From: a virus
Direction: 5' to 3' (one strand)
DNA: 64,000 bases
Virus record (IMG/VR): IMGVR_UViG_3300035698_014446
Span: 1-64,000 of that record
Shown: positions 8,625 through 39,878 of the stretch, in pieces
How positions within the stretch are numbered: the stretch's first letter is position 1
Layout: each line of letters begins with the position of its first letter
Notes under the pieces: generated by a model
What the model saw: the letters and a program-made list of their open reading frames with translations, nothing else
The model's database searches: none
Told to the model about the DNA's origin: nothing
Program-made: the position numbers and the translations under genes

Positions 8625-8652
8625 TATTTGTTACCCGATGAAACAAATAGTG
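8622..8652 (-). promoter_or_regulatory. 11-bp perfect hairpin over the start of the 8310-8624 gene
   Basis: CACTATTTGTT (8622-8632) pairs perfectly with AACAAATAGTG (8642-8652) around a 9-nt loop. No T-run follows on the minus strand, so it is not a standard terminator. It could hide the GTG start of the downstream gene or mark the 3' border of the structured RNA region. Confidence 0.5.
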
Positions 8653-8693
8653 CCCGCGCCGAACTATCCTGTCGACGCGGGCGGTTAGATAGT
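8652..8693 (-). ncRNA. H-type pseudoknot-forming RNA segment
   Basis: Two perfect helices interleave: GCCCGCG (8652-8658) with CGCGGGC (8676-8682), and ACTATC (8663-8668) with GATAGT (8688-8693). The order is that of an H-type pseudoknot. It is GC-rich in an AT-rich genome and lies between the permuted tRNA candidates and the 8622 hairpin. Function unknown. Confidence 0.45.
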
Positions 8694-8756
8694 CATGCAT
8701 TTATAATGCATTATATCACGATGGAACAATTCGCTTTGCCGGTTTTCTCCGTTTAA

Positions 8757-8859
8757 GTTGTTCGTGAATTTAAAATCGCCCGCTTTGCCATTAAGCTATC
8801 CGGCGATCAATAACGCCGGAGTGAGACTCGAACTCACATCGCACGATCAAGCGAACAAC
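8757..8859 (-). tRNA. Candidate circularly permuted tRNA B (3' half before 5' half)
   Basis: On the minus strand the T arm (8837 to 8821, GTGAG/CTCAC with loop TTCGAGT) and acceptor 3' strand TCCGGCG (8820-8814) come first. After an 8-nt linker come the exactly complementary acceptor 5' strand CGCCGGA (8805-8799) and a D arm with GCTT/AAGC stem and GG-containing loop. The outer ends also pair (GTTGTTCG, 8852-8859, with CGAACAAC, 8757-8764), closing an extended anticodon arm as in known permuted pre-tRNAs. The anticodon region reads TTTTAAA or TTTAAAT, so identity is uncertain (UUA or UAA anticodon). No CCA is encoded. A degenerate tRNA remnant is the alternative. Confidence 0.55.
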
Positions 8860-8914
8860 ACTCGACCCGACAAACATCGTAAAATAAGCTTAGAGCAATA
8901 GTCTCGTACTAATA

Positions 8915-9016
8915 GTTGCCACCGACTTTCCATTCCGAGCCGATGCGTCTGCCAATTCCGCCACCCTGCGGGGTATAATACTTAATCGCAGGGGCAGGAT
9001 TCGAACCTGCAAGCAA
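8915..9016 (-). tRNA. Candidate circularly permuted tRNA A (Leu-like D arm)
   Basis: Minus-strand order: a variable-arm 3' strand GTTGCT (9016-9011... read leftward), T arm at 9010-8994 (GCAGG/CCTGC, loop TTCGAAT), acceptor CCCTGCG (8993-8987), a 16-nt linker, then the perfectly complementary acceptor CGCAGGG (8970-8964), TG, and a tRNA-Leu-type D arm (8961-8945). Next is an anticodon stem TCGGC/GTCGG, a 12-nt loop instead of 7 (8927-8938) and a variable-arm strand GGCAAC (8920-8915) that pairs with GTTGCT. All cloverleaf spacings except the anticodon loop are canonical once the halves are swapped. Identity cannot be fixed; a 7-nt reading with GGA is possible. Confidence 0.6.
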
Positions 9017-9019
9017 CAC

Positions 9020-9067
9020 ATAAGACTTAACTTTAGCTTAATCTTATCCGGGGGCATTCGTCCCCGG
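9020..9067 (-). other. Two hairpins between the DUF7873-like gene and tRNA A
   Basis: CCGGGG/CCCCGG stem at 9048-9067 directly follows the stop codon at 9075-9077; a second stem at 9020-9047 pairs ATAAGA with TCTTAT and an inner TTAA/TTAA around a 7-nt loop. No T-run, so weak as terminators; they may protect the mRNA 3' end or guide processing of the tRNA region. Confidence 0.4.
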
Positions 9068-9074
9068 CTGCTCC

Positions 9075-9806
9075 CTATTTACTTGGAAAAATATGACTGA
9101 ATAATTCCGTTCCCACAGAAACGAAAGAAATTTCCACGCTATTTGCTTCTTCTCTCGCGACCTTTACCGCCTCTTGCAACTTCTCGATGCGTTTGATAAT
9201 CGCGGCTTTTTCCGACTCCGGCATGGCCCCAGACATATGAATTGTGGTCCAGTGTCCCACCATCTTGTCGATGTTAATTATTTCCGCCTGTCCCGGCTGA
9301 TGTTCGGTCGGTTCGAACATTACGTGCGTCGTCGGGATTTTTTGAGTTTTGACGGTCTGTTCCTCTTTCGTCACCCAACAATTTTTCGCCTCATCCATCG
9401 TCCACACCCTATCCGGTGGTAACGTCGGAATGTTGTAGGCAAATGTTCGCAAATCGACCAACTGTTTTTCCATAAAGAGTAAAGTGGTAACAGGAATCGA
9501 TTTAAACACGATTTTGTTGTCCACTTTTACATCGGCTCTGGCCGAAGTATTCGCGGAATCCTGCGTGGCTACACAATCAAGAAAATTAACATACTCGTCT
9601 TTCATTTCTTGAATTGCGTCAGGAACCCGAAGTTGTACCCTACGAGATTCAGGTGGAAAAATCTCACCCTCTACATCCGTCGGTTCGTACGTACGGTTAA
9701 TACCACCAATACGATCATTATGCCACCCCCTGTGTATTTCTGTAAGAAGTTTTTGGGTTCTCGTTTTCTTACCCTGTACAATTGCAATTAACTGGTTTAA
9801 CTTCAT
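9075..9806 (-). CDS. DUF7873-like conserved protein
   Basis: 243 residues from ATG 9806, selected because GGAGAG lies 6 nt upstream; the open frame extends to 9869 without a ribosome site. It begins MKLNQLIAIVQGKKTRTQK and has PPESRRVQLRV, a Val-Thr-x-Leu-Leu-Phe-Met-Glu-Lys-Gln-Leu-x-Asp-Leu-Arg segment near 120, and a helical REEAN-containing tail. I recognise this as the protein family seen in many bacterial and phage genomes as DUF7873; its function is unknown. It stands alone between a control region upstream and the structured RNA region downstream. Confidence 0.7.
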   Translation of the reverse strand: MKLNQLIAIVQGKKTRTQKLLTEIHRGWHNDRIGGINRTYEPTDVEGEIFPPESRRVQLRVPDAIQEMKDEYVNFLDCVATQDSANTSARADVKVDNKIVFKSIPVTTLLFMEKQLVDLRTFAYNIPTLPPDRVWTMDEAKNCWVTKEEQTVKTQKIPTTHVMFEPTEHQPGQAEIINIDKMVGHWTTIHMSGAMPESEKAAIIKRIEKLQEAVKVAREEANSVEISFVSVGTELFSHIFPSK

Positions 9807-26894: not shown

Positions 26895-26902
26895 TGTAGT
26901 CT

Positions 26903-27865
26903 TTATACGTTTTTCTTGGCGTGATTATACAAAGCCTTTGAAAAATGTACATTGGTGAAATTATTTAATATTAATTCTCTACCAGCATCGGCTATAGGCT
27001 GGTATTCTTCCACGTTTTCCACAAAATGTGACATGTACCCATCAAAATTTCTCTCGTTTACTTCTATATAATTTCTTTTTGGAATAAATCCCATTAAATA
27101 GTAATCTACATGACGTTGTGCAAAACACACACAACCAGCCATAGGTATTTCAAGATATTTAGGTACTACGTACCAGTCGGTAAGGGCAAGCCCTGCCTGC
27201 CACTTAGATAAAAATTCAAGAAACATATTCCCACACGGAACTCTATCATCGTTCAGGAAATGCTTCACGTAATCAACATGATCTCTACGGTAGGCCCAAT
27301 TTCTAAACTTGTACGGCCTAAACCCCTCTATGCCTCTCCATAAGTGTCCACTACCAAGTATTCCTTGTTTACGTTTTACCAAAGGAACATGATCAAATTC
27401 CTGAACTTTTGGTGCAACCGGGAACCAAAAATGCATGTGGTCCCCGTTGATTCCTAAGTGCGGACGGAGAAACTTTTCAAATCCCTCAGTATAAGGACAG
27501 ATAATAAAGTCTACACCGCGCTGTATAGCGCGTTCACACCTATTTTTTGCCCCAAGTTTACTAAATGCTGTTCCGTCCCTGTACGTTCCCTTCATATCTT
27601 CTTGGTGAGGATCGTTGAAGTATGAGTATTTGGTTGCTTTATGTTCTGAAAGGTTAGGGAACTCTGCGTGATACAGACTGTGAATATCATATATAACTAT
27701 TACATCCACATCATCATCAATATCACACCCCTCGGCCACAATCTGTATAGAATCCCAATCCGGGGATTCAAGTAGTGCATCAAGCATGTGCTTGTATGTT
27801 TGTGAGTAACTATTACCACTTAGTTTGTGATCATTCGGATTGTATATGACTGCTAATTTCATCAC
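26903..27865 (-). CDS. CgeB-like glycosyltransferase
   Basis: 320 residues. GT-B type fold: VIVIYDIHS and YFNDPH in the N-terminal half, then VVPKYLEIPMAGCVCF near 235 and a C-terminal segment typical of the Glyco_trans_1_2 (CgeB/YkvP) family. Probably transfers a sugar to a virion or surface glycan. First-named member of the cassette when read from the connector side; its start is overlapped by a truncated HNH gene. Confidence 0.75.
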   Translation of the reverse strand: MMKLAVIYNPNDHKLSGNSYSQTYKHMLDALLESPDWDSIQIVAEGCDIDDDVDVIVIYDIHSLYHAEFPNLSEHKATKYSYFNDPHQEDMKGTYRDGTAFSKLGAKNRCERAIQRGVDFIICPYTEGFEKFLRPHLGINGDHMHFWFPVAPKVQEFDHVPLVKRKQGILGSGHLWRGIEGFRPYKFRNWAYRRDHVDYVKHFLNDDRVPCGNMFLEFLSKWQAGLALTDWYVVPKYLEIPMAGCVCFAQRHVDYYLMGFIPKRNYIEVNERNFDGYMSHFVENVEEYQPIADAGRELILNNFTNVHFSKALYNHAKKNV

Positions 27866-28073
27866 GCAATCTTCCTAAATATCTTCGGTTCAGGCCAGTC
27901 CAACTAACATTAGACCTATTTCTATACTTAATACTTTGTAAATGTCGTTTTTCTTTAGTTTTAAACTTTTGTCTATACCTGTCACGACGTATTTTCGCTT
28001 TTGCCTTACCCTCTGGGGTACTATAAAGCTTTTTTGCGTTTTCTGCTTTTTTCTTTTTATCTAAATATGGCAT
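27831..28073 (-). pseudogene. Truncated homing endonuclease N-terminus
   Basis: 80 residues. Residues 1-55 are the Lys/Arg-rich YLDKKKKAENAKK ... linker seen in the HNH proteins, but no zinc pair or HNH core follows; the last 25 residues run out of frame into the CgeB-like gene. Likely a remnant of an endonuclease, although expression as a small basic protein cannot be excluded. Confidence 0.55.
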
Positions 28074-28074
28074 A

Positions 28075-28737
28075 CTAATTAATCTCTTTTAGCATGAAGC
28101 CAATACTTGGGCCATAGCCTTTATAACGATCACTGCAATATTTATCGTGTTTTTTAAAAGGACTACCGTCATTTTCCACATCGAGATAACCAAAATCTTT
28201 AACAAAATCATCATCATCCGTAATGAATTTGTTTACCTTAAGACCATCGAATACCGTCCTGTCTTGTTTTATTTTACCGTATAAACTCCTAAATAGATCA
28301 TGTATTCCAACGACCTTTACGTTGTCATTCTTAAAGCATTTACCAGCTAACGATACTGCAGGAACTCCCTTAGGACCGTCAATCAGTACCGCTATTCGCT
28401 TATCGGAAAATACATCTATTATCTGGGATAATAGTGTATGCGCATCACCATTTATTATGGTTATGTTATGAAAAATGGATGTTCTTACTATAGCTTCCAT
28501 TTTCGTTTTCAAATCCATACTTATTAACGGTATCTTAGTAAAGTACTTACCAAGTATGGTGGTGGAACCACCATTACATATACCGGATTCGACAATAAGT
28601 TCAACATCATAATAGTCTGCCAATGCACAAAAGGCAAACCCCTCACTGTTAAGTATACCTTTCGATAACTTAACGTTAGGCATAACTCTCAAGTTAAACC
28701 TCTGTATTCTTTCGTTCATTATGTCCATTACATTCAT
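28075..28737 (-). CDS. SAM methyltransferase-fold protein (cephalosporin hydroxylase-like)
   Basis: 220 residues. VESGICNGGSTTILG is a modified motif I, ITIINGDAH a motif II/III and AVLIDGPKG an acidic strand like the DGxH region of CmcI-type proteins. These are Rossmann methyltransferases, some acting on sugars. A 4-nt overlap with the aldolase gene couples them. Confidence 0.6.
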   Translation of the reverse strand: MNVMDIMNERIQRFNLRVMPNVKLSKGILNSEGFAFCALADYYDVELIVESGICNGGSTTILGKYFTKIPLISMDLKTKMEAIVRTSIFHNITIINGDAHTLLSQIIDVFSDKRIAVLIDGPKGVPAVSLAGKCFKNDNVKVVGIHDLFRSLYGKIKQDRTVFDGLKVNKFITDDDDFVKDFGYLDVENDGSPFKKHDKYCSDRYKGYGPSIGFMLKEIN

Positions 28738-29462
28738 AATACACTGTCCATTCCTAATCTTAATAATACTGCATCTGTCCCAACAGCTATCATTCTGTAA
28801 CCTTCGACTACAGCCGCTTGCAAAAGGATTTTGTTTGGTTCGACTATGTGTATTCCTGCGGGGCTACCGGCATCTTTACACATGTCTAAATACCTACGCA
28901 TATATTTGTCAAACAACATATCATCCATATTTATGTCTATCGAACCTTTAAGATCAAGAGGTCCAATAAACGAGCCATCAACACCGTCTACCCTGAGTAT
29001 CGAATAGAGATTATCCATAGCTATACTATGTTCTATCTGGACAACTAATGATATGTTGTTATTAGCATTTTTTATGTAGTCTTTAAATGTCCGCCCGTAT
29101 CCATTACAGTGTGAGTAACCGAATCCTCGCATACCCTTAGGTGGGTATTTTGTGTATCTAACAGCGGATTCCGCTTGTTCCACATTATTAACCATCGGCA
29201 CGATTATACCTTGTGCGCCAGCATCTAATGATCTACCTATCCATTTGTAGTCATTTTCCGGCACTCTAACAATCGGGGCTACACAGTGTGATGATATAAC
29301 AGTAACCAAGTTTGCTACCGACTCTATACTTATAGGTCCGTGTTCCAAATCGATACATATCCAATCGAAACAGTTGGAACCGGCCATTATGTCGGCAATA
29401 ATAACTGAGCCTGTTTGAATCCAACCACCAACAGTCGTTTTGTCTGATTTAAGAATGTTCAC
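28734..29462 (-). CDS. HpcH/HpaI-family aldolase
   Basis: 242 residues. CIDLEHGP near 35, RVPENDYKWIGRSLDAGAQGIIVPMV (split core motif with metal-site neighbours) near 65-90 and GSFIGPLDL near 160 define the HpcH/HpaI class II pyruvate aldolases. Reaction: reversible aldol addition of pyruvate (or a related 2-oxoacid) to an aldehyde, metal dependent. It is translationally coupled to the 2-hydroxyacid dehydrogenase upstream, suggesting that the two make or consume a 2-oxo/2-hydroxy acid for the cassette. Confidence 0.85.
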   Translation of the reverse strand: MNILKSDKTTVGGWIQTGSVIIADIMAGSNCFDWICIDLEHGPISIESVANLVTVISSHCVAPIVRVPENDYKWIGRSLDAGAQGIIVPMVNNVEQAESAVRYTKYPPKGMRGFGYSHCNGYGRTFKDYIKNANNNISLVVQIEHSIAMDNLYSILRVDGVDGSFIGPLDLKGSIDINMDDMLFDKYMRRYLDMCKDAGSPAGIHIVEPNKILLQAAVVEGYRMIAVGTDAVLLRLGMDSVL

Positions 29463-30420
29463 AGATGTCTCCTCTTTCGAAAGGAACTAAGTTGCCCGGC
29501 GCAGGTGGGTGACCATTTAATACACTCATACAATCCCTTGCCGCCTGTGTTTCCATATCAATTCTCGTACTAAGAGTCATGGACCCGACGTGTGAGGATA
29601 ACAATACTTTGTCGTGAAGAATTAAATCACCTTCGTACGGTTCGTCACTGAACACGTCAATTGCTACACCGGCCAATTTCTCCGAATTGATTAACCAGTA
29701 TAGTAATGCTTCTTCATCGAGTATTTCACCACGCGATGTATTAATTAGATACGACCCTTGTTTCATCTTACCGATGAAACCGTGGTCTACCATGTTATGG
29801 TTATGTTTACTCATTGGTACACTAACTGATATTATATCACTTTCGGCCAACACCTTGTCCAGACTTATTGATGGTACAAAAGCATAGTTTGATTCGCCCC
29901 ACCACGAAGTAACCATGGCATCATTTGTATCGTATGCCAGTATGTCTTTTGGGCTGAATGGCTGTAATCTTTTAATTACCCTTTTACCAATTCTACCCAC
30001 GCCTACCACACCAATTACTAACTCAGATATTTTTCTACCAAGAGGTCTATCCCACCGTCTGTGATGGATGGAATTGTTCATTGTGTGTAGTTGTCTTGTC
30101 ATATTAAATATTTGGGCAATAATCAATTCGGCTACGCTACCGGCTGGGGCATCCGGGGTGTAGGTTACAACTATTCTATGTTTCTCACAGTACTTTAGGT
30201 CCACATTATCGAATCCCACACCCATTCGTGAAATTACTTTTAGTTTAGTTGCCGTAGATAATACTTCGGAATTATACGATTCTGTTCCAGCTATTACTCC
30301 TTCCGCGTCCTGTAAACAACTAACTTCTTCCATCCCCGCATCTGCAAGAAGATATCTCGCCGTAAGGTCGAAAGTACCAAACGTGTTGTCTCCCACAAAT
30401 ATTTTCATTTCATCAGTCAT
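29449..30420 (-). CDS. D-2-hydroxyacid dehydrogenase (SerA-like)
   Basis: 323 residues from ATG 30420, which overlaps the FkbM stop as ATGA; the frame is open to 30438. VGVGRIGKRV is the NAD-binding motif, RMGVGFDNVD and INTSRGEILDEEAL are family signatures, and the Arg, Glu and His of the catalytic triad are seen (STSRGE region, DVFSDEPYE, SSHVGS). It reduces a 2-oxoacid to a D-2-hydroxyacid with NADH. Coupled to the aldolase gene by a 14-nt overlap. Confidence 0.9.
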   Translation of the reverse strand: MTDEMKIFVGDNTFGTFDLTARYLLADAGMEEVSCLQDAEGVIAGTESYNSEVLSTATKLKVISRMGVGFDNVDLKYCEKHRIVVTYTPDAPAGSVAELIIAQIFNMTRQLHTMNNSIHHRRWDRPLGRKISELVIGVVGVGRIGKRVIKRLQPFSPKDILAYDTNDAMVTSWWGESNYAFVPSISLDKVLAESDIISVSVPMSKHNHNMVDHGFIGKMKQGSYLINTSRGEILDEEALLYWLINSEKLAGVAIDVFSDEPYEGDLILHDKVLLSSHVGSMTLSTRIDMETQAARDCMSVLNGHPPAPGNLVPFERGDICEHS

Positions 30421-31067
30421 GCCAATAAGGCCTCGCACTTGTAAATCCTTCCAACAATGTCCATGAACTCTCTCGGAGCAAACTCATTTATAAACACAAA
30501 ATCACCAAAAGACGAGTTTGGCTTACGCGCATTTCCAAGAAATCGAAAAGTACCGTTTGTTACGATATATTTACACACTTCGTCAACCAGTGGTGCATCC
30601 TTATAAAAAGGAGCAAAGAATACTTCTACCTGAATACACCATATAGTATTCAAGTATTTACCCAAACTTTTGATAACTTTTAAATCATATCCTTGTGTAT
30701 CCACTTTCAAAAAATTAAAATGTGGCTCCATCGAATCGAGTATCGTGTCCAACCTGATTCTGTTTACCTTAATAACCTGCTTTATATCAAGGTCCGTTGG
30801 GCTTTGTGGCCTCATAGACGCAGCCGTATCTTCTACCTCAAAAAAGGATGAGCAATCCTGTTTTTTTAACACGTTAAAATCGGTTATTCCTTCCTCGTCC
30901 GAGATAGCAAGTCGTAAATGACAATGATTCGTAGTATTGAACGAATTGTACAACGGATTAAAGGATAATATATATCCCATTTTATCCAGTTCTTTTTTCC
31001 ACTGGTTATTCATGTCACCAGTAAATCCAACATCGATCAAATTGAGCTTAATATTATTAGTGCCCAT
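30417..31067 (-). CDS. FkbM-family methyltransferase
   Basis: 216 residues. RLDTILDS and FLKVDTQGYDLKVIKSL are the FkbM signature; the N-terminus has NLIDVGFTG as motif I. FkbM enzymes O-methylate sugars and other small molecules. Likely modifies the cassette's glycan. Confidence 0.85.
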   Translation of the reverse strand: MGTNNIKLNLIDVGFTGDMNNQWKKELDKMGYILSFNPLYNSFNTTNHCHLRLAISDEEGITDFNVLKKQDCSSFFEVEDTAASMRPQSPTDLDIKQVIKVNRIRLDTILDSMEPHFNFLKVDTQGYDLKVIKSLGKYLNTIWCIQVEVFFAPFYKDAPLVDEVCKYIVTNGTFRFLGNARKPNSSFGDFVFINEFAPREFMDIVGRIYKCEALLA

Positions 31068-31113
31068 ATTATATAACTTTCTTTATTCTTTCACTAAATA
31101 CTTTAGGTATTAA

Positions 31114-31776
31114 CTAATTAAGTTTATCACCTTTTTTACAATTACAACTAACACAGGTAGGTACTACATTTTCTGGGGAATGTTCACCATTTTTATTAAG
31201 CGGTATTACGTGATCTTGGGTTAGATATCCCTGTTTTGTTTCTATATCACTAATACTACAATACGCACATCTGTAATTATATTTTATTAAAATTTCTTCC
31301 CATTGTTCCGCATCAACACCAGTTCCGTTAGTTCGTTTTAGTACTTTATGATTTTTAGCATATGCCTTACATTTATCTTTGTTATTTTTACGCCATAAAC
31401 TATATGTTATACTTAATCTATCCTTATTATTTTGATAATATTTTTTATGTTTAATACGTACTTTTTTCTTATTTTTATTATACCATTTCTTTTTTCTATC
31501 TGATTCTTTTTCAGGGTTAACTTCACGGCGTCTTTTAACTTTTACTGCTATTTCTTTTTTATTATCACTATAATATTTTTTCTTTCGTGTAAGCAATTCT
31601 TTATTGTTCCTACGGTATTTCTTTGTTCGTTTACTAACACATACTTTACATTCCGAATTAAGTCCCGAACATTTACTGCTTTTTACATGAAAATACTCGG
31701 TAGTCGCCGGTAACTCATCACCACAACCCGTGCATTCTACAGTTAAATTAATTACTTTATTTTCCTTGCTACACAT
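31114..31776 (-). CDS. HNH homing endonuclease
   Basis: 220 residues. Zinc ribbon CTGCGDEL...CKVC, Lys-rich linker with NNKELLTRKKK-type repeats, then CAYCSISDIE, LTQDHVIPLNKNG and CVSCNCKKGD. Intact. Its 5' end overlaps the upstream methyltransferase stop by 25 nt. Confidence 0.9.
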   Translation of the reverse strand: MCSKENKVINLTVECTGCGDELPATTEYFHVKSSKCSGLNSECKVCVSKRTKKYRRNNKELLTRKKKYYSDNKKEIAVKVKRRREVNPEKESDRKKKWYNKNKKKVRIKHKKYYQNNKDRLSITYSLWRKNNKDKCKAYAKNHKVLKRTNGTGVDAEQWEEILIKYNYRCAYCSISDIETKQGYLTQDHVIPLNKNGEHSPENVVPTCVSCNCKKGDKLN

Positions 31777-32336
31777 AGTCCGGCCCTTGTTGCACTTTTA
31801 TATATTAGTTCCCATTCATGTCTACTGTCCAATATTTCCTCATACGCCCGGTGATTCTTTATGCTTTTCGGAAAGTGTATATCATGAAGGGCTATAAAAC
31901 CACCAACCGGTAACATATCCTTCATTATCAACCATTCCGAGTATCCACAATATTCACCAGTGTCACAGAAGAAGAATTGTGGAAGACCATACGTTTTTAT
32001 AGTCTCTCTTATAAGATCGGTTCTACCTTCCATTTTACACTTACCAAGAGCCACATCTTCATCCGGTGTATTTTTGTATCTTGATTCCTCAAAATACTTG
32101 TGTTCAGGACCTATTACATCTCCCGGTGCTATAGACCAACCTGTTATGTATGTCTCAAGCCCCATTACTGGTTTATGATCGAGTTTTGGTTTAATTAAAT
32201 CGATAGACATTACCCTGACAAGACTTCTGGCAAAACACCGCGTAGAATAACCACTACCTGTTTCCAATACATAATTACAGTTCTTAGCAAGACTTATCAA
32301 TACTGTTAATTCACTATCAGTCGGACTACCCATCAC
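31752..32336 (-). CDS. Class I SAM methyltransferase (Methyltransf_24-like)
   Basis: 194 residues. VLETGSGYSTRCFA is motif I and QFFFCDTGEYCGYSEWL plus ALHDIHFP are the acidic and DxH segments of the Methyltransf_24 group. Substrate unknown, probably sugar. Overlaps the next methyltransferase gene by 11 nt. Confidence 0.75.
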   Translation of the reverse strand: MMGSPTDSELTVLISLAKNCNYVLETGSGYSTRCFARSLVRVMSIDLIKPKLDHKPVMGLETYITGWSIAPGDVIGPEHKYFEESRYKNTPDEDVALGKCKMEGRTDLIRETIKTYGLPQFFFCDTGEYCGYSEWLIMKDMLPVGGFIALHDIHFPKSIKNHRAYEEILDSRHEWELIYKSATRAGLCVARKIK

Positions 32337-32916
32337 TTCTCCTCTTACTCGTAACTATCCAATGTTTATTGTTAAGAAAACGAATATCTGATATATCTAA
32401 CAGACCATCGTATCTGTCATGAATTTCATCTTTATTCCCAAAATGTCTAACATGACATTTCGCTGGTTTATTTGGCACTGAAAAGAATACCCAAGTCCCT
32501 GCTTCTATTTCCTTAACAAATTCCAAATCCCATATTATATGTTCAAATATTTCTTGTGCAATCACACAATCATACTTGTTGAGATCAGCTGAATACCTAA
32601 ATGTATAATTGATTAGATCAATTGTACAATCTTCGTTATTAACACCCTGTAGCATAACCTCAGCGTAATCAAAAGAATCAGAAAATTCGTAACCAGTATA
32701 CGTCTTTGGTCTAATCTCGTCCACAACCATAGCAATCATGTGCCCAAAACCAAATCCTACTTCCAGTACATGTTTCGGTTCGCAAGTAGCCTTTATTATT
32801 TCAAGCATTGGCCTCATGTACGGAAGTATTTCTCCGTATTTTGGATTTCTCGACCAAAATTCACTGTAGTAAACATGGTCTTTTTCGTTTTTGTCTATGT
32901 CAGGTCTACGTATCAT
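32326..32916 (-). CDS. Class I SAM methyltransferase
   Basis: 196 residues. HVLEVGFGFGHMIAM (motif I), YTGYEFSD (motif II) and DCVIAQEIFEH (motif IV) are clear. Similar to Methyltransf_11/23 enzymes in sugar clusters. Confidence 0.8.
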   Translation of the reverse strand: MIRRPDIDKNEKDHVYYSEFWSRNPKYGEILPYMRPMLEIIKATCEPKHVLEVGFGFGHMIAMVVDEIRPKTYTGYEFSDSFDYAEVMLQGVNNEDCTIDLINYTFRYSADLNKYDCVIAQEIFEHIIWDLEFVKEIEAGTWVFFSVPNKPAKCHVRHFGNKDEIHDRYDGLLDISDIRFLNNKHWIVTSKRRSDG

Positions 32917-32928
32917 ATTTTGTCCCTG

Positions 32929-33558
32929 TCAAGCAATTACCCAGTTTACTTTATTACCTTTTTTAGTGTTACATAGTATACAACACAGTACAATGTTATT
33001 TATTTCGTGCCTACCATCTCTGTCCAATGAAATAACGTGATCTTTACTTATACCATTCGGATTATATTTAAATTGTACATTTTCCTCAAGCACCACATTA
33101 CAATACACACAACGACCATTATACTCAGTTATTTTATCAGCCCATTCTTGTGCAGTTATACCTTCATCGCCTACTAATTTTAGTAATCTACGATTGTCGT
33201 TATGAATTTTTAATGACTCTTTATTGTTCTTACGCCATTTCTTTTGTTGTAATTTTATTTTCCTACAATTCACCTCTCTGTATTCTTTTTGTTGTATGGC
33301 TATTTTATTTTTATTATTATCGTACCACACTTTTTTCCGTTTTACTTCTTTTTCTTTATTTTTATTACGCCACTTTTTACCATAAATTTTCATTTTATTT
33401 TTATTTTTACTACGCCACTCTTTACTATGGACAGCAGCACATTTTTTACATCGTTGTTGAAAACCAAATTTTCCCTTTTTATTTTTATAAAAATGTTCAG
33501 AAATAGCTAAAAACTTTATATTACAATCAGAACATATTATAAAATTATATGTAGTCAC
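32929..33558 (-). CDS. HNH homing endonuclease
   Basis: 209 residues. N-terminal CSDCNIKF...CKKC zinc ribbon, Asn/Lys-rich linker, then CVYCNVVLEE, GISKDHVISLDRDG and CILCNTKK. Complete. The stop lies 12 nt before the start of the methyltransferase gene at 32916. Confidence 0.9.
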   Translation of the reverse strand: MTTYNFIICSDCNIKFLAISEHFYKNKKGKFGFQQRCKKCAAVHSKEWRSKNKNKMKIYGKKWRNKNKEKEVKRKKVWYDNNKNKIAIQQKEYREVNCRKIKLQQKKWRKNNKESLKIHNDNRRLLKLVGDEGITAQEWADKITEYNGRCVYCNVVLEENVQFKYNPNGISKDHVISLDRDGRHEINNIVLCCILCNTKKGNKVNWVIA

Positions 33559-34236
33559 TTATAACCGTACTCCTGTAATAATAAGTCTGTGTCCACGTAT
33601 TGAGTTTTGGAGAGGATTATTATTAGTGTAATATTTTACCCAATAATCATTGAATTCCATTACCTCACTAGTTTCCTTTATTAATACATGCGCTGAATCA
33701 ATGATAGCATGTCTCTTTATCTCGTTAATCAGTTTTATTATGTCAAAATTAGACGAAAAATACCTAATACCTTGTCTATCCTGACGAATAATAGAACGTA
33801 AGCTACCACCTACACTCCACTTAAACAAAGTAATATGAAATCGTCTAGCGCAAGTTGTTATGTTCTTTATCGCCGTTACTACAGGATACGTGTGTTCAAC
33901 CACATCACACACTCTCACCAGATCATACAAAATAACTGGTTCATTGACAAATCTCTCTATAACGCCTTTGATAATGTTAACGTCCGGATACATCTTAGCT
34001 ATGTAATCAATAAACGATTTTGACGTTTCCAACACGTTATACTTTATAGTTCTTATCTTTCTTATCTCCGGGTATTCTATTAATTGTCCGGGTCCTATTT
34101 CCAGAATTGATTTTATATTTTCATGTTTTCTAATATACTCTATATACATTTTATGATATAAATCTTTTCTGTTATGTTCGATAAACCCTACATCACCGGG
34201 CTTATATTGATCCCACTTTTTAAGTAATTCCGTCAT
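33559..34236 (-). CDS. Class I SAM methyltransferase-like protein
   Basis: 225 residues. SILEIGPGQLIEYPEIRKI (motif I), NVLETSKSF (motif II) and YDLV-RVCDVVEHT (motif IV) fit a Rossmann methyltransferase. Third methyltransferase in 3 kb, separated from the others by an HNH gene. Confidence 0.7.
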   Translation of the reverse strand: MTELLKKWDQYKPGDVGFIEHNRKDLYHKMYIEYIRKHENIKSILEIGPGQLIEYPEIRKIRTIKYNVLETSKSFIDYIAKMYPDVNIIKGVIERFVNEPVILYDLVRVCDVVEHTYPVVTAIKNITTCARRFHITLFKWSVGGSLRSIIRQDRQGIRYFSSNFDIIKLINEIKRHAIIDSAHVLIKETSEVMEFNDYWVKYYTNNNPLQNSIRGHRLIITGVRL

Positions 34237-34243
34237 TTGGTTC

Positions 34244-34801
34244 CTATGCCAATTTTAATTCTTTACCAAATATTTTTAGTTTTTTCCAATCTAATTTATT
34301 TTTCTTTTTTGTATTATAATCTCTACAACATGGAACAACATTATCTATTTCATGTTTACCACCCTTATCTAAAGGAATAACGTGATCTTGACTAATACCA
34401 TTTGGGTTATAAATATTAGGTAAATTTTCTTCCAACCTAATACCACAATAAGCACACCTACCATTATACTCAAGTATTTTGTGTGCCCATTCCTTAACAG
34501 TTGTCCCTTTGCCAGATAATTTTTTAAGAATTTTACGATTTCTTGTTTTTATTCTTATTGTGTCTTTGTTAATTTTATAGTATTTTTTATAGCGTTTTCT
34601 ATTACGTTTATTCGCCACTTCTTTGTTTTCCTCATACCATTTTTTATTACGTTTGTTTATTGATTTTTTATTTTTCTTGTATTGTATTCTATAGCGTTTT
34701 CTCGTGCATACCTTACAGTCTAATCTTAATTCGTTACCTCTTCTGTGAAAATATTCCGGCGTATCCGGAAATTCATCACCACATTTTATGCACTCTTTCA
34801 T
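34244..34801 (-). CDS. HNH homing endonuclease with a lost zinc Cys
   Basis: 185 residues from ATG 34801 (a GTG at 34807 is less likely). Zinc ribbon CIKCGDEF...CKVC, linker, CAYCGIRLEE and GISQDHVIPLDKGG are intact, but the closing pair reads CCRDYNTKK where relatives have CRDCNTKK. The Cys-to-Tyr change should disturb the structural zinc site, so the enzyme may be inactive while the reading frame is still open. Confidence 0.85.
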   Translation of the reverse strand: MKECIKCGDEFPDTPEYFHRRGNELRLDCKVCTRKRYRIQYKKNKKSINKRNKKWYEENKEVANKRNRKRYKKYYKINKDTIRIKTRNRKILKKLSGKGTTVKEWAHKILEYNGRCAYCGIRLEENLPNIYNPNGISQDHVIPLDKGGKHEIDNVVPCCRDYNTKKKNKLDWKKLKIFGKELKLA

Positions 34802-34803
34802 TA

Positions 34804-35493
34804 TCACTCAAGTATTCCCATCACATCTTTAAAGAACTTACTATGCACAGTCGGGGTTATAATATTAAAGTTTACACCAGCTACCCTTAGTAATTGCATC
34901 CCTTCACGAGTTAATTTATCTTTAACAATACACTGTTCATAAGTAGCATCATCTGTAAAGCCATTACCATAGCAATGTTGATTTCCTTCACCATTAATTA
35001 AATCTTTTCGTGTATGAAGACAAAAACCGTCAAACCCTACTGCGTAAATCCTTTTTGCACCAAGTACTTTAGCAATGGCTATCGCGAGAACCCCGGCTAT
35101 CCTGAAATGTCCATACAGAATACCACCTATATACCTGTATGGTACACCCGGTTCACTTTTGTAATTCACCTGAATATAATCACCACCTACCGCTGCTCTC
35201 AAACTTTCAACGATTCCTATACCAAGCATCAGTTTGGATTGAGAACGTATGCAGTTTCTTTGATCATGTAATCTCTGATTATTAGTCCATAAATGATAAT
35301 CAGGGATGAAAAAATCAGTCATTTTATTTATACCAATGGTTACCAATCTTTCATCCTTTATAAAGTGACGAATTTTTTGATAATACTTCCTTGTACCATC
35401 ACCAGCACCAACAATCACAAAATCTCTGTCTTGTTCCGTGTTTTCATACCAACTTAGGCGGTTCACGAAGCATCCTTTCAAATCCCCACTCAC
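34804..35493 (-). CDS. DUF115/sialyltransferase-like protein (tentative)
   Basis: 229 residues. DFVIVGAGDGTR at the start, DYHLWTNNQRL near 77 and VLGAKRIYAVGFDGF near 150 resemble the Rossmann-like layout of DUF115/MptE-like and GT42 sialyltransferase proteins that use nucleotide-activated sugars. Not certain. Its start lies 50 nt inside the radical SAM gene. Confidence 0.45.
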   Translation of the reverse strand: MSGDLKGCFVNRLSWYENTEQDRDFVIVGAGDGTRKYYQKIRHFIKDERLVTIGINKMTDFFIPDYHLWTNNQRLHDQRNCIRSQSKLMLGIGIVESLRAAVGGDYIQVNYKSEPGVPYRYIGGILYGHFRIAGVLAIAIAKVLGAKRIYAVGFDGFCLHTRKDLINGEGNQHCYGNGFTDDATYEQCIVKDKLTREGMQLLRVAGVNFNIITPTVHSKFFKDVMGILE

Positions 35494-36394
35494 GAGTTAA
35501 TTTGCGATAATTAATAGAAGATAATCCAAGTCTCGGACATCTTTGGCACTCTACTGGTAATTCTGATACTTTGGTTGAATTGTAAAATTTATTCTTAAAT
35601 TCAGACATAATGGGATTTTGATTATTATAAGTCCCATATTTTTTGTTGGAATGAATGTGACAACACGGAGTAACATATCCGTTTAAACCAATAGTAATTC
35701 TATGGTTTATTATTTGAACACATAAACATCTTTCATGGTACTGACCCGGTAAATTCAACTTTATGTTAATGTTAAAATCGTTTCGAGCAGTTAATTCGCT
35801 AATAAAGTTTAAAAAATTAGAGTCTGGTTTTATTGTTTTGTACTTATCTACTACAGGATTATACTGGTGAAATCTGATTGTGTTGACACCCAATTCTTCA
35901 CAAAATTTAATCACATCAATTACATCCTCGTGATCGCCTGACATGAGTATGTAATTAATGGTTATCTTCTTTCTGTCAGGAGTAGACACAGCCAGTTTTA
36001 TATTCTTAATTACTCTGTCAAATTGTTTTTGTGTTCCACCACGACGTACGGCATACTTGTATGCTGTGTACCCGTCAAGACTAATTACCATGTGCATATA
36101 CTTAATCATATCAACAAATTTATCGAGCAATTGACCATTAGTTATTACTTTGTTAACAATTACTCCGTTTTCGTTGGCATAACTAACCATTTCCCTGTAC
36201 CGGGAATGCATCAGTACTTCACCCTCGCTTTGTAGTAACAATTTATTGTAACCACAACCCTTCAAATAATCAATTATTCTCTGATATTCAGACATCGGCA
36301 TTTCGGAATCAGTCTTCTCGTTATGTACCCATAAACAATGAGGACATTTGAGATTACATTTATCCGTAATATGTATGACCGCTACTTTATTCAT
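35444..36394 (-). CDS. Radical SAM/SPASM enzyme
   Basis: 316 residues. CNLKCPHC gives the CxxxCxxC 4Fe-4S motif at 13-20; QSEGEVLMH and VISLDGYTA follow as expected for the barrel; the C-terminus has clustered cysteines (CCHIH ... CQRCP) of a SPASM auxiliary cluster domain. Such enzymes modify peptides, sugars or cofactors by radical chemistry. Coupled by a shared base with the APS-kinase-like gene at 36394. Confidence 0.85.
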   Translation of the reverse strand: MNKVAVIHITDKCNLKCPHCLWVHNEKTDSEMPMSEYQRIIDYLKGCGYNKLLLQSEGEVLMHSRYREMVSYANENGVIVNKVITNGQLLDKFVDMIKYMHMVISLDGYTAYKYAVRRGGTQKQFDRVIKNIKLAVSTPDRKKITINYILMSGDHEDVIDVIKFCEELGVNTIRFHQYNPVVDKYKTIKPDSNFLNFISELTARNDFNINIKLNLPGQYHERCLCVQIINHRITIGLNGYVTPCCHIHSNKKYGTYNNQNPIMSEFKNKFYNSTKVSELPVECQRCPRLGLSSINYRKLTREWGFERMLREPPKLV

Positions 36395-36819
36395 TATATT
36401 ACGTAATCGCCCTCTGGTACTTTGGTTTTGTTATTCACGGAGTCAATTATCTCCCTAAGTCTGTCAACACTTTTTTCTATTGATAATGTATCAGTATCAA
36501 TAGTTAGATAATCATATAATTCCTCATAAAAGTGACCTTCTCTGTACGGCATCATTTTTCTGATATAAACAAAACTTATCATCGGGTAATTGGCACTTAT
36601 CGTTCTTCTCGTGTATATCACCGGAGCAATTACTGATACAATTACATTAATTTGTTTAACGAGTTCCCTCACCAACCGAGCTACTCTATAGTTATGTTCT
36701 GATCTTTCATCAAGGGAGAATCCAGCGCCCAATAATATACTGTCCCTCATTTCGTCCCCATCAACTATAACAGTAATTGATGTCCCACAAGTTTTAAGTA
36801 TGTGCGTGTAAAGTAGCAT
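36394..36819 (-). CDS. APS-kinase-like protein lacking the P-loop
   Basis: 141 residues. VIVDGDEMRDSILLGAGFS, then DERSEHNYRVARLV and IVSVIAP follow the order of adenylylsulfate kinase after its Walker A segment. The normal GxxGxGKS/T loop, expected about 25 residues before DGD, is absent because the gene begins there. Either truncated, non-catalytic, or the ATP site is supplied otherwise. Overlaps the ParB-like gene by 26 nt. Confidence 0.65.
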   Translation of the reverse strand: MLLYTHILKTCGTSITVIVDGDEMRDSILLGAGFSLDERSEHNYRVARLVRELVKQINVIVSVIAPVIYTRRTISANYPMISFVYIRKMMPYREGHFYEELYDYLTIDTDTLSIEKSVDRLREIIDSVNNKTKVPEGDYVI

Positions 36820-37276
36820 TATTATTCCTCATAACTTGACATACTACCTGTTTATTTCCTAAAATAGCCCAGCATACTATTCTGTGGTGTCCATCTTTAA
36901 TACTAAATGATCTTCCCTCTTGAGCAATAACTACTGGTGGTTTAGTAATTCCCTTAATTCTTATGTTATTGAATAACTTCATAAAATTTGCAGCTTTAAA
37001 TACGGCCACAGGATGCGATTTACCATACAATCTTTGCATCCTATAATAATCAGTATCCACGTAATCAAACTTAGTACCTGTAGTAGCACACTTTACGTAC
37101 TCAAGGATGAATCGGTACATAGGTGATATTTTTAAACCGAGTACGTCGTCACATTTTGCCGGGAACAATGATTTATACAACTCATACCTTTTGGGGTTAT
37201 ACTCAACAGTAAGACTATCGATATCTACCATGTTAAGTGATGACATTTTTCCGTTTGGTATTACAAATTCAACCAT
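36794..37276 (-). CDS. ParB-like nuclease domain protein
   Basis: 160 residues. PPVVIAQEGRSFSIKDGHHRIVCWAILG near 120-147 is the ParB/sulfiredoxin-type core (DGHHR). Free-standing ParB-like domains occur in phage and sugar-modification clusters as CTP/ATP-binding switches or nucleases. Role here unknown. Overlaps the triple-domain protein by 8 nt. Confidence 0.65.
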   Translation of the reverse strand: MVEFVIPNGKMSSLNMVDIDSLTVEYNPKRYELYKSLFPAKCDDVLGLKISPMYRFILEYVKCATTGTKFDYVDTDYYRMQRLYGKSHPVAVFKAANFMKLFNNIRIKGITKPPVVIAQEGRSFSIKDGHHRIVCWAILGNKQVVCQVMRNNNATLHAHT

Positions 37277-39878
37277 CAGTGTCCGATAATTTAGATATTA
37301 AGTTAGCTACGTTGCTCGGTACTCTCTTTTTCGGGTCGTTCTTACCAAAGATAACACACATTTCTTTGTGTTTACTCGGTACGTTTTTCATGATATTTTC
37401 TATCACTTTTTTCTCAACGACAAATAAACCTTTACTCACAAACAATTCAATTATCTCCTCTTCTGTTTTGATAACTGTATGTCCGTTCTTTGGTTTATCA
37501 TTAAGCGGATGATTAAAAAATAGTAATCCACCCGGTGTCATTATTCTGCAGATTTCGTTAACACCCGCCTCAAAATGATTGTGTGTTAACGCGTGATCAA
37601 GGACTTCCCAAGCAAAAACAATGTTTGTGGAACTGGTATTAATTGGTATATTGGAAAAATCACCCTTTAAACAATTGATTTTATATGGTAACTTATCCAT
37701 TTCCAAGAATTTGTCCATCAGTATATCAATTGAGTATTTTTCCGCCTTAAACGGGAAAAATCTTAGCGCACCACCATACGCTCCCCCACCTATCTCAACT
37801 ACTGTTTCTATAATTTCGAGGTCCATATTATCAGTAATCACCTGATCAACATTAAACTGGTTATATACTCTCTTGATGTCCTCTATATAATACTCATCCT
37901 TATTGCCCTCCCAATACTTCATTTCGAAGTCTGGCGACCATTTACCTAATATTTTGTGTCTTCTCTCCCGCCACATTTCAAGCACTTTGTTGTTTAACTT
38001 GTACAAAACTCCGCAAAGAGCCTTTGGTCTTCTTTTGGAATAGACACCCAATCTTAATAAACTTTGCCAAGACTCGCCCTTATAATGAATTATGTGAGTT
38101 TTAGTTGTTGGAACAATTCCCCTTGATTCATTAAAAAACTTCATCGGGAAACCTTGAAATTTTAAACCACTCACAACCATACCTTTTGTGAACTGATTCG
38201 GGTCGCGCGTATTAAGTATGAATCCAAATGATACCTGATCACCACCACCCCACAAAATATAACCATTCTTTTTTGCTGATTTATCAGCTTTCTGTGTTTT
38301 TATGGTTAATCTTGACCATTCCTTAAGAAAACTCCTAACTAACTCGGAATTTTTGGCCAACACTATGCCACAATTTATCGGCCAACTTATATTTTCATCA
38401 TCACGTTCCTTATAACAAAAACCGACGTCAAAATCAGTAGTAAAGAACTTACCCATTTTCCTGACAACCATCATGTCTGCGTCCATTAATACTACATTCT
38501 GTAAATCTTTGTTATCCTCAAGTATTTCATGCCATATTAATGATTTCTGCGCCGTTTTGTATTCTTTGTCACCAGCCTCACACCCTCCGTGTTTCGATTC
38601 CTTTAGTACCACGTATGGTAATATCTTTTTTATTTCATCAATGTACTCCGGGTCGATGTTATGGTAATAAAATATAACATTTGCCTTACCATCATACACC
38701 TTATCAATGCTCTGTAACAGAACGAACACGTTATCGATAAACTTATCGCCATAAGCGGAAAAGGCAAAAGTTATTTTGTTATCTTCTACATTCGCCAATT
38801 CTTCTTTCGCTACTGCCGTATCAATAATCTTATGAAAAACGTTGACCATGGAAGTACCAGCATCCTCCATACCAAAACATTCTTCGGCCTTAGACCTACA
38901 ATCAGCGGATATCTTCTCCCTGTTCTTTTTGATTTCTTCCCACGCTATGTGTATCGTATCAGCAAACATTTCCGTATTACGTGGGTTACTACTGAATAGT
39001 GCATATGGATTACCACTACCACCTATAATAGGTAACCCACAAGCCAATGCTTCCCTGATTATTCGCGTAGCTATTATATGCGGAGTAACTAATAAATCAG
39101 CCGCTCTATACTGTTCCCCCATATTAGGCATTAAAGTACACACATCGCCTAATAATCCCCTTTTACTCAACTGATTAATTATTATGTATATTGGGTCTTT
39201 TTTGTTGGAAGGAACACCATACATATGTATTCTTCCAGTTTGGCAATACTTTTCAATAAATCGTACAGCCGCAAATAAAATATTAAACGGTGTTGTATCT
39301 TCCCTCCACATATCGGCAATCATTATGTTGGGATTACCCCTACGTGTATCATAGTTACGTTTTTTCCCAACCGGTTTGTACTCATTCATATCAACCATTG
39401 ATGGAACAAATGCCATCGGTTTTTCTGGTATTAAATGTTGAAAATAGAATATATGTTCTTTCCAGAACGTAACCACGGCCTTGTATAGATCGTTATTAGC
39501 CACTTCTCTTATGAACGAATACACAGGTATTTGCCCATATTTTTCCAACAGGAATGAGTTTTCCGGTCTACCGTGGAGACACAGAATTATCGGTTTCCCC
39601 ATACCTTCTAATTCTATTGGTATAACCGAATGTCGTACGAATATGTCAGCATTTGCAGCCCAATCCATGGACTGTGTGACTATATCGTTGTCCTCTTTGT
39701 CCTCACACCCCTCGTTTTTCAAACACTTGGGACATACTGCACAATCAATGAACTGAGCATCTACCCCAAACATCCGTTCTGCGCGAATCAAGTCCCTTAC
39801 TGTGGCATACTGTCCCGATCTTCCGGGTCCGAATGCCGCAAAATGTGCTACTTTTAGTCCATTTAGATCAGTCGCCAT
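37269..39878 (-). CDS. Three-domain glycosyltransferase (GT4)-glycosyltransferase (GT8-like)-methyltransferase
   Basis: 869 residues. Residues 1-350: GT-B glycosyltransferase, with AADLLVTPHIIATRIIREALACGLP as the donor-site helix. Residues 365-640: GT-A fold with NVVLMDADMMVV (DxD) and WGGGDQ, resembling GT8 enzymes. Residues 690-830: methyltransferase with VVEIGGGAYGG and IVFAWEVLDHAL. The protein could build two linkages and methylate the product. First gene of the cassette, downstream of the capsid terminator, with GGGACAAGAAAC before ATG 39878. Confidence 0.85.
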   Translation of the reverse strand: MATDLNGLKVAHFAAFGPGRSGQYATVRDLIRAERMFGVDAQFIDCAVCPKCLKNEGCEDKEDNDIVTQSMDWAANADIFVRHSVIPIELEGMGKPIILCLHGRPENSFLLEKYGQIPVYSFIREVANNDLYKAVVTFWKEHIFYFQHLIPEKPMAFVPSMVDMNEYKPVGKKRNYDTRRGNPNIMIADMWREDTTPFNILFAAVRFIEKYCQTGRIHMYGVPSNKKDPIYIIINQLSKRGLLGDVCTLMPNMGEQYRAADLLVTPHIIATRIIREALACGLPIIGGSGNPYALFSSNPRNTEMFADTIHIAWEEIKKNREKISADCRSKAEECFGMEDAGTSMVNVFHKIIDTAVAKEELANVEDNKITFAFSAYGDKFIDNVFVLLQSIDKVYDGKANVIFYYHNIDPEYIDEIKKILPYVVLKESKHGGCEAGDKEYKTAQKSLIWHEILEDNKDLQNVVLMDADMMVVRKMGKFFTTDFDVGFCYKERDDENISWPINCGIVLAKNSELVRSFLKEWSRLTIKTQKADKSAKKNGYILWGGGDQVSFGFILNTRDPNQFTKGMVVSGLKFQGFPMKFFNESRGIVPTTKTHIIHYKGESWQSLLRLGVYSKRRPKALCGVLYKLNNKVLEMWRERRHKILGKWSPDFEMKYWEGNKDEYYIEDIKRVYNQFNVDQVITDNMDLEIIETVVEIGGGAYGGALRFFPFKAEKYSIDILMDKFLEMDKLPYKINCLKGDFSNIPINTSSTNIVFAWEVLDHALTHNHFEAGVNEICRIMTPGGLLFFNHPLNDKPKNGHTVIKTEEEIIELFVSKGLFVVEKKVIENIMKNVPSKHKEMCVIFGKNDPKKRVPSNVANLISKLSDTDG

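Follow-up and report, generated by a model that had tools for sequence, protein, structure and literature searches.

The window, that is the whole stretch of DNA analysed, covers 64 kb of an IMG/VR virus record of 92,205 bp from a tailed phage with terminase, tape-measure-like and tail genes. No DNA similarity between the window and annotated phages was found. The locus lies on the minus strand throughout and begins with a DUF7873 gene (PF25283, E 7e-83) at 9075..9806, which encodes 243 amino acids counted from the conserved start, within an open frame that extends to 9869. The stop codon (9077-9075) is directly followed by a conserved RNA of about 340 nt. Two elements form part of this RNA, A (about 8911-9017) and B (8757-8859), which have the same permuted order of tRNA parts, A lying about 170 nt upstream of B.

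The 5' part of the RNA (9026..9066) consists of a hairpin, CGGGGACGAAUGCCCCCGG (9066-9048), and a region of hexamer-repeat motifs, GAUUAAGCUAAAGUUAAG (9043-9026), with the family motif YUNARAYUNA. Hexamer repeats of the AAGCTC/AAGCTG type occur upstream of A both here and in related loci, and the same motif is found in the middle hairpin and in the B trailer; it is possibly a protein-binding site. A coding reading of the AAG-CUN hexamers was dropped on direct reading because stops break the frames in several loci. The sequence ACUUAAACGGAGAAAAC was discarded as a marker of the family, since most of what it picks up are ribosome-binding leaders ahead of ATG in unrelated phages.

Element A opens with the 3' strand of a variable arm, GUUGCU (9012..9017), which pairs with GGCAAC (8920-8915) and has the counterpart AAAACAAU/AUUGUUUU in the related viral contig L002. 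The motif scan then places a T arm (8994..9010), the acceptor 3' strand CCCUGCG (8987..8993), a linker of 16 nt (8971..8986) and the acceptor 5' strand CGCAGGG with a Leu-type D arm (8945..8970). A hairpin, AUCGGCU...AGUCGGU (8921..8944), identified by direct reading and in relatives, stands where the anticodon arm would be, and the 5' strand of the variable arm (8915..8920), identified by a partner test described below, closes the element. Between A and B lies a hairpin-loop motif, GAYUAUYGCUCYA (8888..8906), that is conserved in relatives.

Element B is enclosed by two helices. The outer one, helix M, pairs UUUGUCGG (8867..8874) with CCGGCAAA (8742-8735) and corresponds to UUUGUUCG/CGAACAAA in L002. 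Two stretches conserved in relatives, a UCGA motif before B (8860..8867) and a UUAAAC stretch after it (together with the helix M 3' strand, 8735..8756), flank the inner helix L, which joins the B leader GUUGUUCG (8852..8859) to the B trailer CGAACAAC (8757..8764) and was identified by folding, RNAalifold and the partner test. Inside helix L follow the 3' strand of an anticodon-type stem, AUCGU (8843..8847), a five-base variable loop GCGAU (8842-8838), the T arm GUGAGUUCGAGUCUCAC (8821..8837), the acceptor 3' strand UCCGGCG (8814..8820), the 8-nt linker UUAUUGAU (8806..8813, from the scan), the acceptor 5' strand CGCCGGA (8799..8805) and the D arm GCUUAAUGGCAAAGC (8782..8796). Both arms and both acceptor strands were obtained by folding, scan and RNAalifold alike. 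The 5' strand of the anticodon-type stem, GCGAU (8775..8779), is placed by the fold and relatives and is followed by an internal loop in the trailer, UUUAAAUUCA (8765..8774), which contains the family motif YUNARAYUNA and is the stretch earlier read as an anticodon. A weak pattern match further downstream marks a G+C-rich hairpin (8652..8682) as a possible transcript end.

The original prediction described B as a T arm and TCCGGCG set 8 nt before CGCCGGA and a D arm, with complementary outer 8 nt, and as the second of two permuted tRNA-like folds in tandem. The unconstrained minimum free energy fold of 8750-8865 is exactly this structure (-39.1 kcal/mol, z -2.8), and none of 200 shuffles folded as well. 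A motif scan of the window matched elements A and B only, and relatives confirm the tandem arrangement. A better linear tRNA fold was looked for, in the fold of 8750-8865 and with ARAGORN, and none was found; ARAGORN reported 0 genes of ordinary linear tRNA in the window. An Rfam scan of the window gave nothing at gathering score, the tRNA model reaching 15.6 bits against a threshold of 29. The RNA thus escapes both ARAGORN and Rfam at its curated thresholds. The exact B pattern was not found in viral contigs. Ordinary tandem tRNAs were rejected: A and B each pair their acceptor internally, and so do the elements of relatives. Rfam gave no support for a group I intron or for a permuted intron-exon arrangement, and these were rejected too.

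The element accompanies DUF7873 in phages of many hosts. At least one element was found by motif scan downstream of DUF7873 in 97 of 106 nonredundant IMG/VR viral loci, and two elements in 49; these loci were made nonredundant with a short key only, and the virus records may be fragments. The controls gave one match on the reverse strand, 0 and 0 upstream on the two strands and 0-1 in shuffles. Since the scan demands a paired acceptor, acceptor counts within the scanned loci are selected and the chance rate is given by the control loci; with 97 of 106 relatives against 0-1 in controls, the earlier argument that the permuted acceptor pairs are not due to chance is sustained. Both halves of the element are conserved in relatives, not one half only. 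In L002, where DUF7873 is 49% identical, the same tandem pair is present with different sequences and intact pairing. DUF7873 with a tandem pair was also found in the GenBank phages Mimi and Racecar (Arthrobacter), Phendrix and Keelan (Gordonia), NiceHouse (Rhodococcus), PA-SR01 and Pam2 (Pseudanabaena) and FBKp24 (Klebsiella). Gordonia phage Fryberger has B by scan and A by eye, and Rhizobium and Vibrio phages have one element each. A partial Microcoleus phage record (L043) has DUF7873 without a permuted element; a linear tRNA-like sequence follows the gene instead. Many of the phage copies sit within tRNA gene arrays.

Relatives of DUF7873 are encoded in 270 stretches of bacterial genomes, and among the best 80 of these 270 the motif scan found the element in 74, with two matches upstream and one in a shuffle as controls. 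DUF7873 is present in 6 of 198 actinobacterial genomes, a draw that includes the centre genome, and the chromosomal form is therefore patchy. A search from the RNA side, in which DUF7873 was not used, again found the RNA adjoining DUF7873 in stretches long enough to hold it; one short chance match lacked both.

The fold is conserved through compensatory substitution. RNAalifold on a MAFFT alignment of 25 B elements recovered helix L, the T arm, the acceptor and the D arm unprompted, with two-sided changes in 21 of 23 pairs. A covariance model built from 25 phage-derived B sequences, with no bacterial chromosome sequence included, matched all 74 sources tested (72 bacterial loci, the window and L002) and gave at least two matches in 69 of them; in the bacterial loci, 137 of 142 matches start no more than 450 nt downstream of the DUF7873 stop. 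In the covariance-model alignment 97.0% of pair cells were kept, against 68.0% in shuffles, and two-sided changes were found in 807 cells, against 233. The covariation score was 0.581, compared with 0.159 for shuffles and at most 0.122 with partners slid by 1-3 columns. Because the structure was used to fit this alignment, a test of own against swapped partners serves as an independent check. It gave z -10.2 for helix L, so that the outer 8-nt complement, originally proposed to hold the split anticodon arm together, is a conserved helix, and z -5.8 for helix M, -5.2 for the B anticodon-type stem and -5.2 for the A leader and trailer; none of 2000 permutations did as well. The same test gave no clear support for the helices A_up x B_far, A_up x MIDhp, A_up x B_trail, A_trail x MIDend, MIDend x B_trail, A_lead x MIDend and A_up x A_lead. 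With the whole RNA in a single RNAalifold run, mainly the T arms, acceptors and D arms were recovered.

A decoding loop is missing. B had been read as a tRNA gene with the anticodon UUA or UAA, a reading that comparison with relatives does not support: neither U33 nor a 7-nt loop is conserved, in class II A elements a hairpin stands in for the anticodon arm, and no bulge-helix-bulge is seen. Among B elements whose anticodon-type stem is clear, U33 is found in only 23 of 46; the class I A elements have it in 5 of 23 cases. The three bases after this position in B vary and have no decoding pattern, and the bases following position 33 conform to YUNARAYUNA, not to an anticodon pattern. The class II A elements (18 of 49), to which the A of the window belongs (hairpin 8944-8921, variable arm GGCAAC/GUUGCU), have a Leu-type D arm and a variable arm formed by leader and trailer, and in most of them a separate short hairpin replaces the anticodon arm, capped by UACG in L051, GUAA in L110 and GUAU in L002. 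At the anticodon junction an asymmetric internal loop lies between the anticodon-type stem and helix L, where no bulge-helix-bulge was seen. Circularly permuted tRNA genes are known in algae and archaea (PMC3978253, PMC3218864) and share with this RNA a 3' half placed before the 5' half, a pairing acceptor and ends joined by a helix; the present elements differ in having no bulge-helix-bulge and no conserved anticodon loop, and in being hosted by phages and bacteria.

A covarying permuted tRNA-like fold without a decoding loop, linked to DUF7873 in phages and in bacteria, is most likely a tRNA look-alike and a previously undescribed noncoding RNA; a codon-reading tRNA is unlikely. Neither DUF7873 nor permuted phage tRNAs were found in the literature searched. 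Chen is said to have listed Y RNAs in mycobacteriophages in 2014, and some B elements may be among them. Our preferred explanation, which we regard as probable, is a conserved noncoding RNA with twin permuted tRNA-like domains, a tRNA mimic acting with DUF7873. The reading as a tRNA mimic is well supported, and we infer the transcription of the RNA, its mimicry in the cell, the partner and the purpose. B would be the second half of the RNA. In both domains the T arm comes first, then the acceptor and the D arm, and the domains are connected by helices or hairpins that stand where a tRNA has its anticodon arm. The RNA probably shares its transcript with the upstream DUF7873 gene, and together with the protein of that gene it most likely assembles into a ribonucleoprotein. 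It may imitate the elbow and the acceptor end of a tRNA and be recognised by tRNA-binding enzymes or by the DUF7873 complex; serving as a docking module or a decoy in the surveillance, damage or repair of tRNA would be one example, and this role is the least certain step.

The partnership of DUF7873 with the RNA is suggested by their linkage only, seen in both search directions. The AlphaFold2 model of DUF7873 is confident (pLDDT 93.5, pTM 0.70), and a fold search among solved structures gave no informative match and no recognisable RNA-binding fold. The best Foldseek E value was 0.11; the best VIA-align match, 3kdq_A, had Z 9.4 but an rmsd of 8.3 and is an uncharacterised Corynebacterium protein, from which no function follows. 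The pI of DUF7873 is near-neutral, about 6.2. An RtcB RNA ligase is encoded by the same phage outside the window (record G000, 86618-87703, minus strand, E 5e-106). Among bacteria an RtcB gene adjoins the module in a Nonomuraea genome (L222, 1-1044) and a Thg1 gene in an Anaerolineales genome (L258, 3384-4139); as a systematic neighbourhood neither was found, each occurring in 1 of 20 bacterial genomes. The phage RtcB, the location in tRNA arrays and the single RtcB and Thg1 neighbours hint at tRNA damage or repair, as a lead.

The linkers bear on an alternative in which RNase P of the host would cut before the acceptor 5' strands and the 3' ends would be processed to CCA, giving a split, nicked RNA that could be charged but would not decode. 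NCCA and a U at position -1 are known preferences of RNase P. Of the phage linkers, 46 of 98 (A 21/49, B 25/49) carry NCCA just after the acceptor 3' strand, and of the bacterial ones 27 of 90 (A 15/45, B 12/45), compared with about 2% for CCA elsewhere in the linkers, and a U precedes the acceptor 5' strand in 57 of 98 phage (B 35/49) and 51 of 90 bacterial cases (B 36/45). These sequence features suggest that some members of the family are recognised in an RNase P-like way, or that true tRNA pairs were the ancestors, and the NCCA carried by part of the family suggests that some copies may have tRNA-like ends produced by processing, for which a purely closed mimic would have no use. However, the A and B linkers of the window are without NCCA, many linkers of 4-7 nt have the appearance of plain loops, and the B linker of L002 self-pairs and extends the acceptor stem, unlike a tRNA end. 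The layout would be comparable to that of two-piece (permuted) tmRNA, with which the RNA shares a permuted gene order, a tRNA-like end and, in some copies, CCA, but here real D arms are present. The tmRNA model did not match at the element in the window or the related loci, where no conserved tag reading frame was seen either, and a tmRNA identity was rejected on the missing model match. We consider a split, chargeable RNA unlikely. An origin by tandem tRNA duplication with loss of the outer halves is speculation.

A second alternative is a divergent Y RNA, served by a host Ro60/Rsr protein and with DUF7873 as an accessory. YrlA (RF02553), a bacterial Y RNA that tethers Ro60, is a tRNA mimic (PMC8394870; PMC7790460), and it shares with B the order T arm, acceptor, D arm and a stem joining both RNA ends; it too is a mimic and not a decoder. 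In a permissive Rfam scan B matched YrlA end to end with 36.1 bits (E 3e-6), 7 of 12 relatives tested gave 33-38 bits, the B of L002 25.5 bits and A 17.7 bits, and TROVE (Ro60/Rsr) genes are present somewhere in 6 of 10 bacterial host genomes. Every match is nevertheless far below the gathering score of 69, at which YrlA had no match in 40 related loci. The RNA also differs from YrlA in its two tandem domains, the class II A with a hairpin of its own, the extra helix M, the conserved UCGA/UUAAAC and GAYUAUYGCUCYA motifs and the fixed linkage to DUF7873 in place of Ro60. No TROVE gene was found in this phage record, in that of L002 or in 4 of 10 bacterial genomes carrying the module; it was absent from 8 of 9 further phage records and present, elsewhere in the genome, in one. 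Because Ro60 is missing from this record, that of L002 and 8 of the 9 others, the RNA is taken to work like the mimic domain of a Y RNA and is not filed as one. A divergent Y RNA served by host Ro60/Rsr is considered quite improbable. Phage homologues of Ro60 with putative Y RNAs are known from Listeria phage CKA15 (PMC12282133) and from jumbo phages (PMC7824862). A phage-borne tRNA-mimic RNA was proposed there too, but those systems rest on a Ro60-like protein, and there is none in this record.

The constant position just past the DUF7873 stop codon could also indicate that the 3' end of the mRNA holds a cis-acting element by which the protein would control its own transcript. Two full domains with tRNA-type D and T arms exceed what an operator needs, the tRNA-array context is left unexplained, and this reading is very improbable. 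It is hardly credible that the RNA is a permuted pre-tRNA, cut and ligated in the anticodon loop to working tRNAs of which B reads UAA or UUA, since the permuted order, perfect acceptors, leader/trailer helix and phage-encoded RtcB in its favour are set against a U33 and a 7-nt loop that are not conserved, the class II A hairpins, internal loops that are not bulge-helix-bulge, and the absence of RtcB/RNA_ligase matches from several complete relatives.

For the twin-domain tRNA mimic, a broader proposal is made tentatively and at somewhat less than even chances: DUF7873 and the RNA may constitute a new ribonucleoprotein system, not of Y RNA descent, that senses or counters the state of the tRNA pool in phages of many hosts and in patchy chromosomal copies (Actinobacteria, Chloroflexi, Myxococcales and others). 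DUF7873, a conserved gene without assigned function, would gain a probable RNA partner, and tRNA mimicry by permutation would not be limited to the Y RNAs of Ro60.

In at least one phage the place of the element is annotated as a suppressor tRNA. The tRNA-Sup-TTA of Klebsiella phage FBKp24 (L044, 3048-3127) covers the 3' half of B and an encoded ACCA, and thus looks like a mis-annotated permuted RNA. A tmRNA of 89 bits lies in the tRNA array of Gordonia phage Phendrix (L030, 1078-1606) and is not listed as such in the record. One DUF7873 open frame (L096, 1801-2583) contains a single in-frame TAG, possibly in a stop-recoding phage. At 26900-37300 the window carries a cluster of sugar-nucleotide, radical SAM and methyltransferase-like genes.
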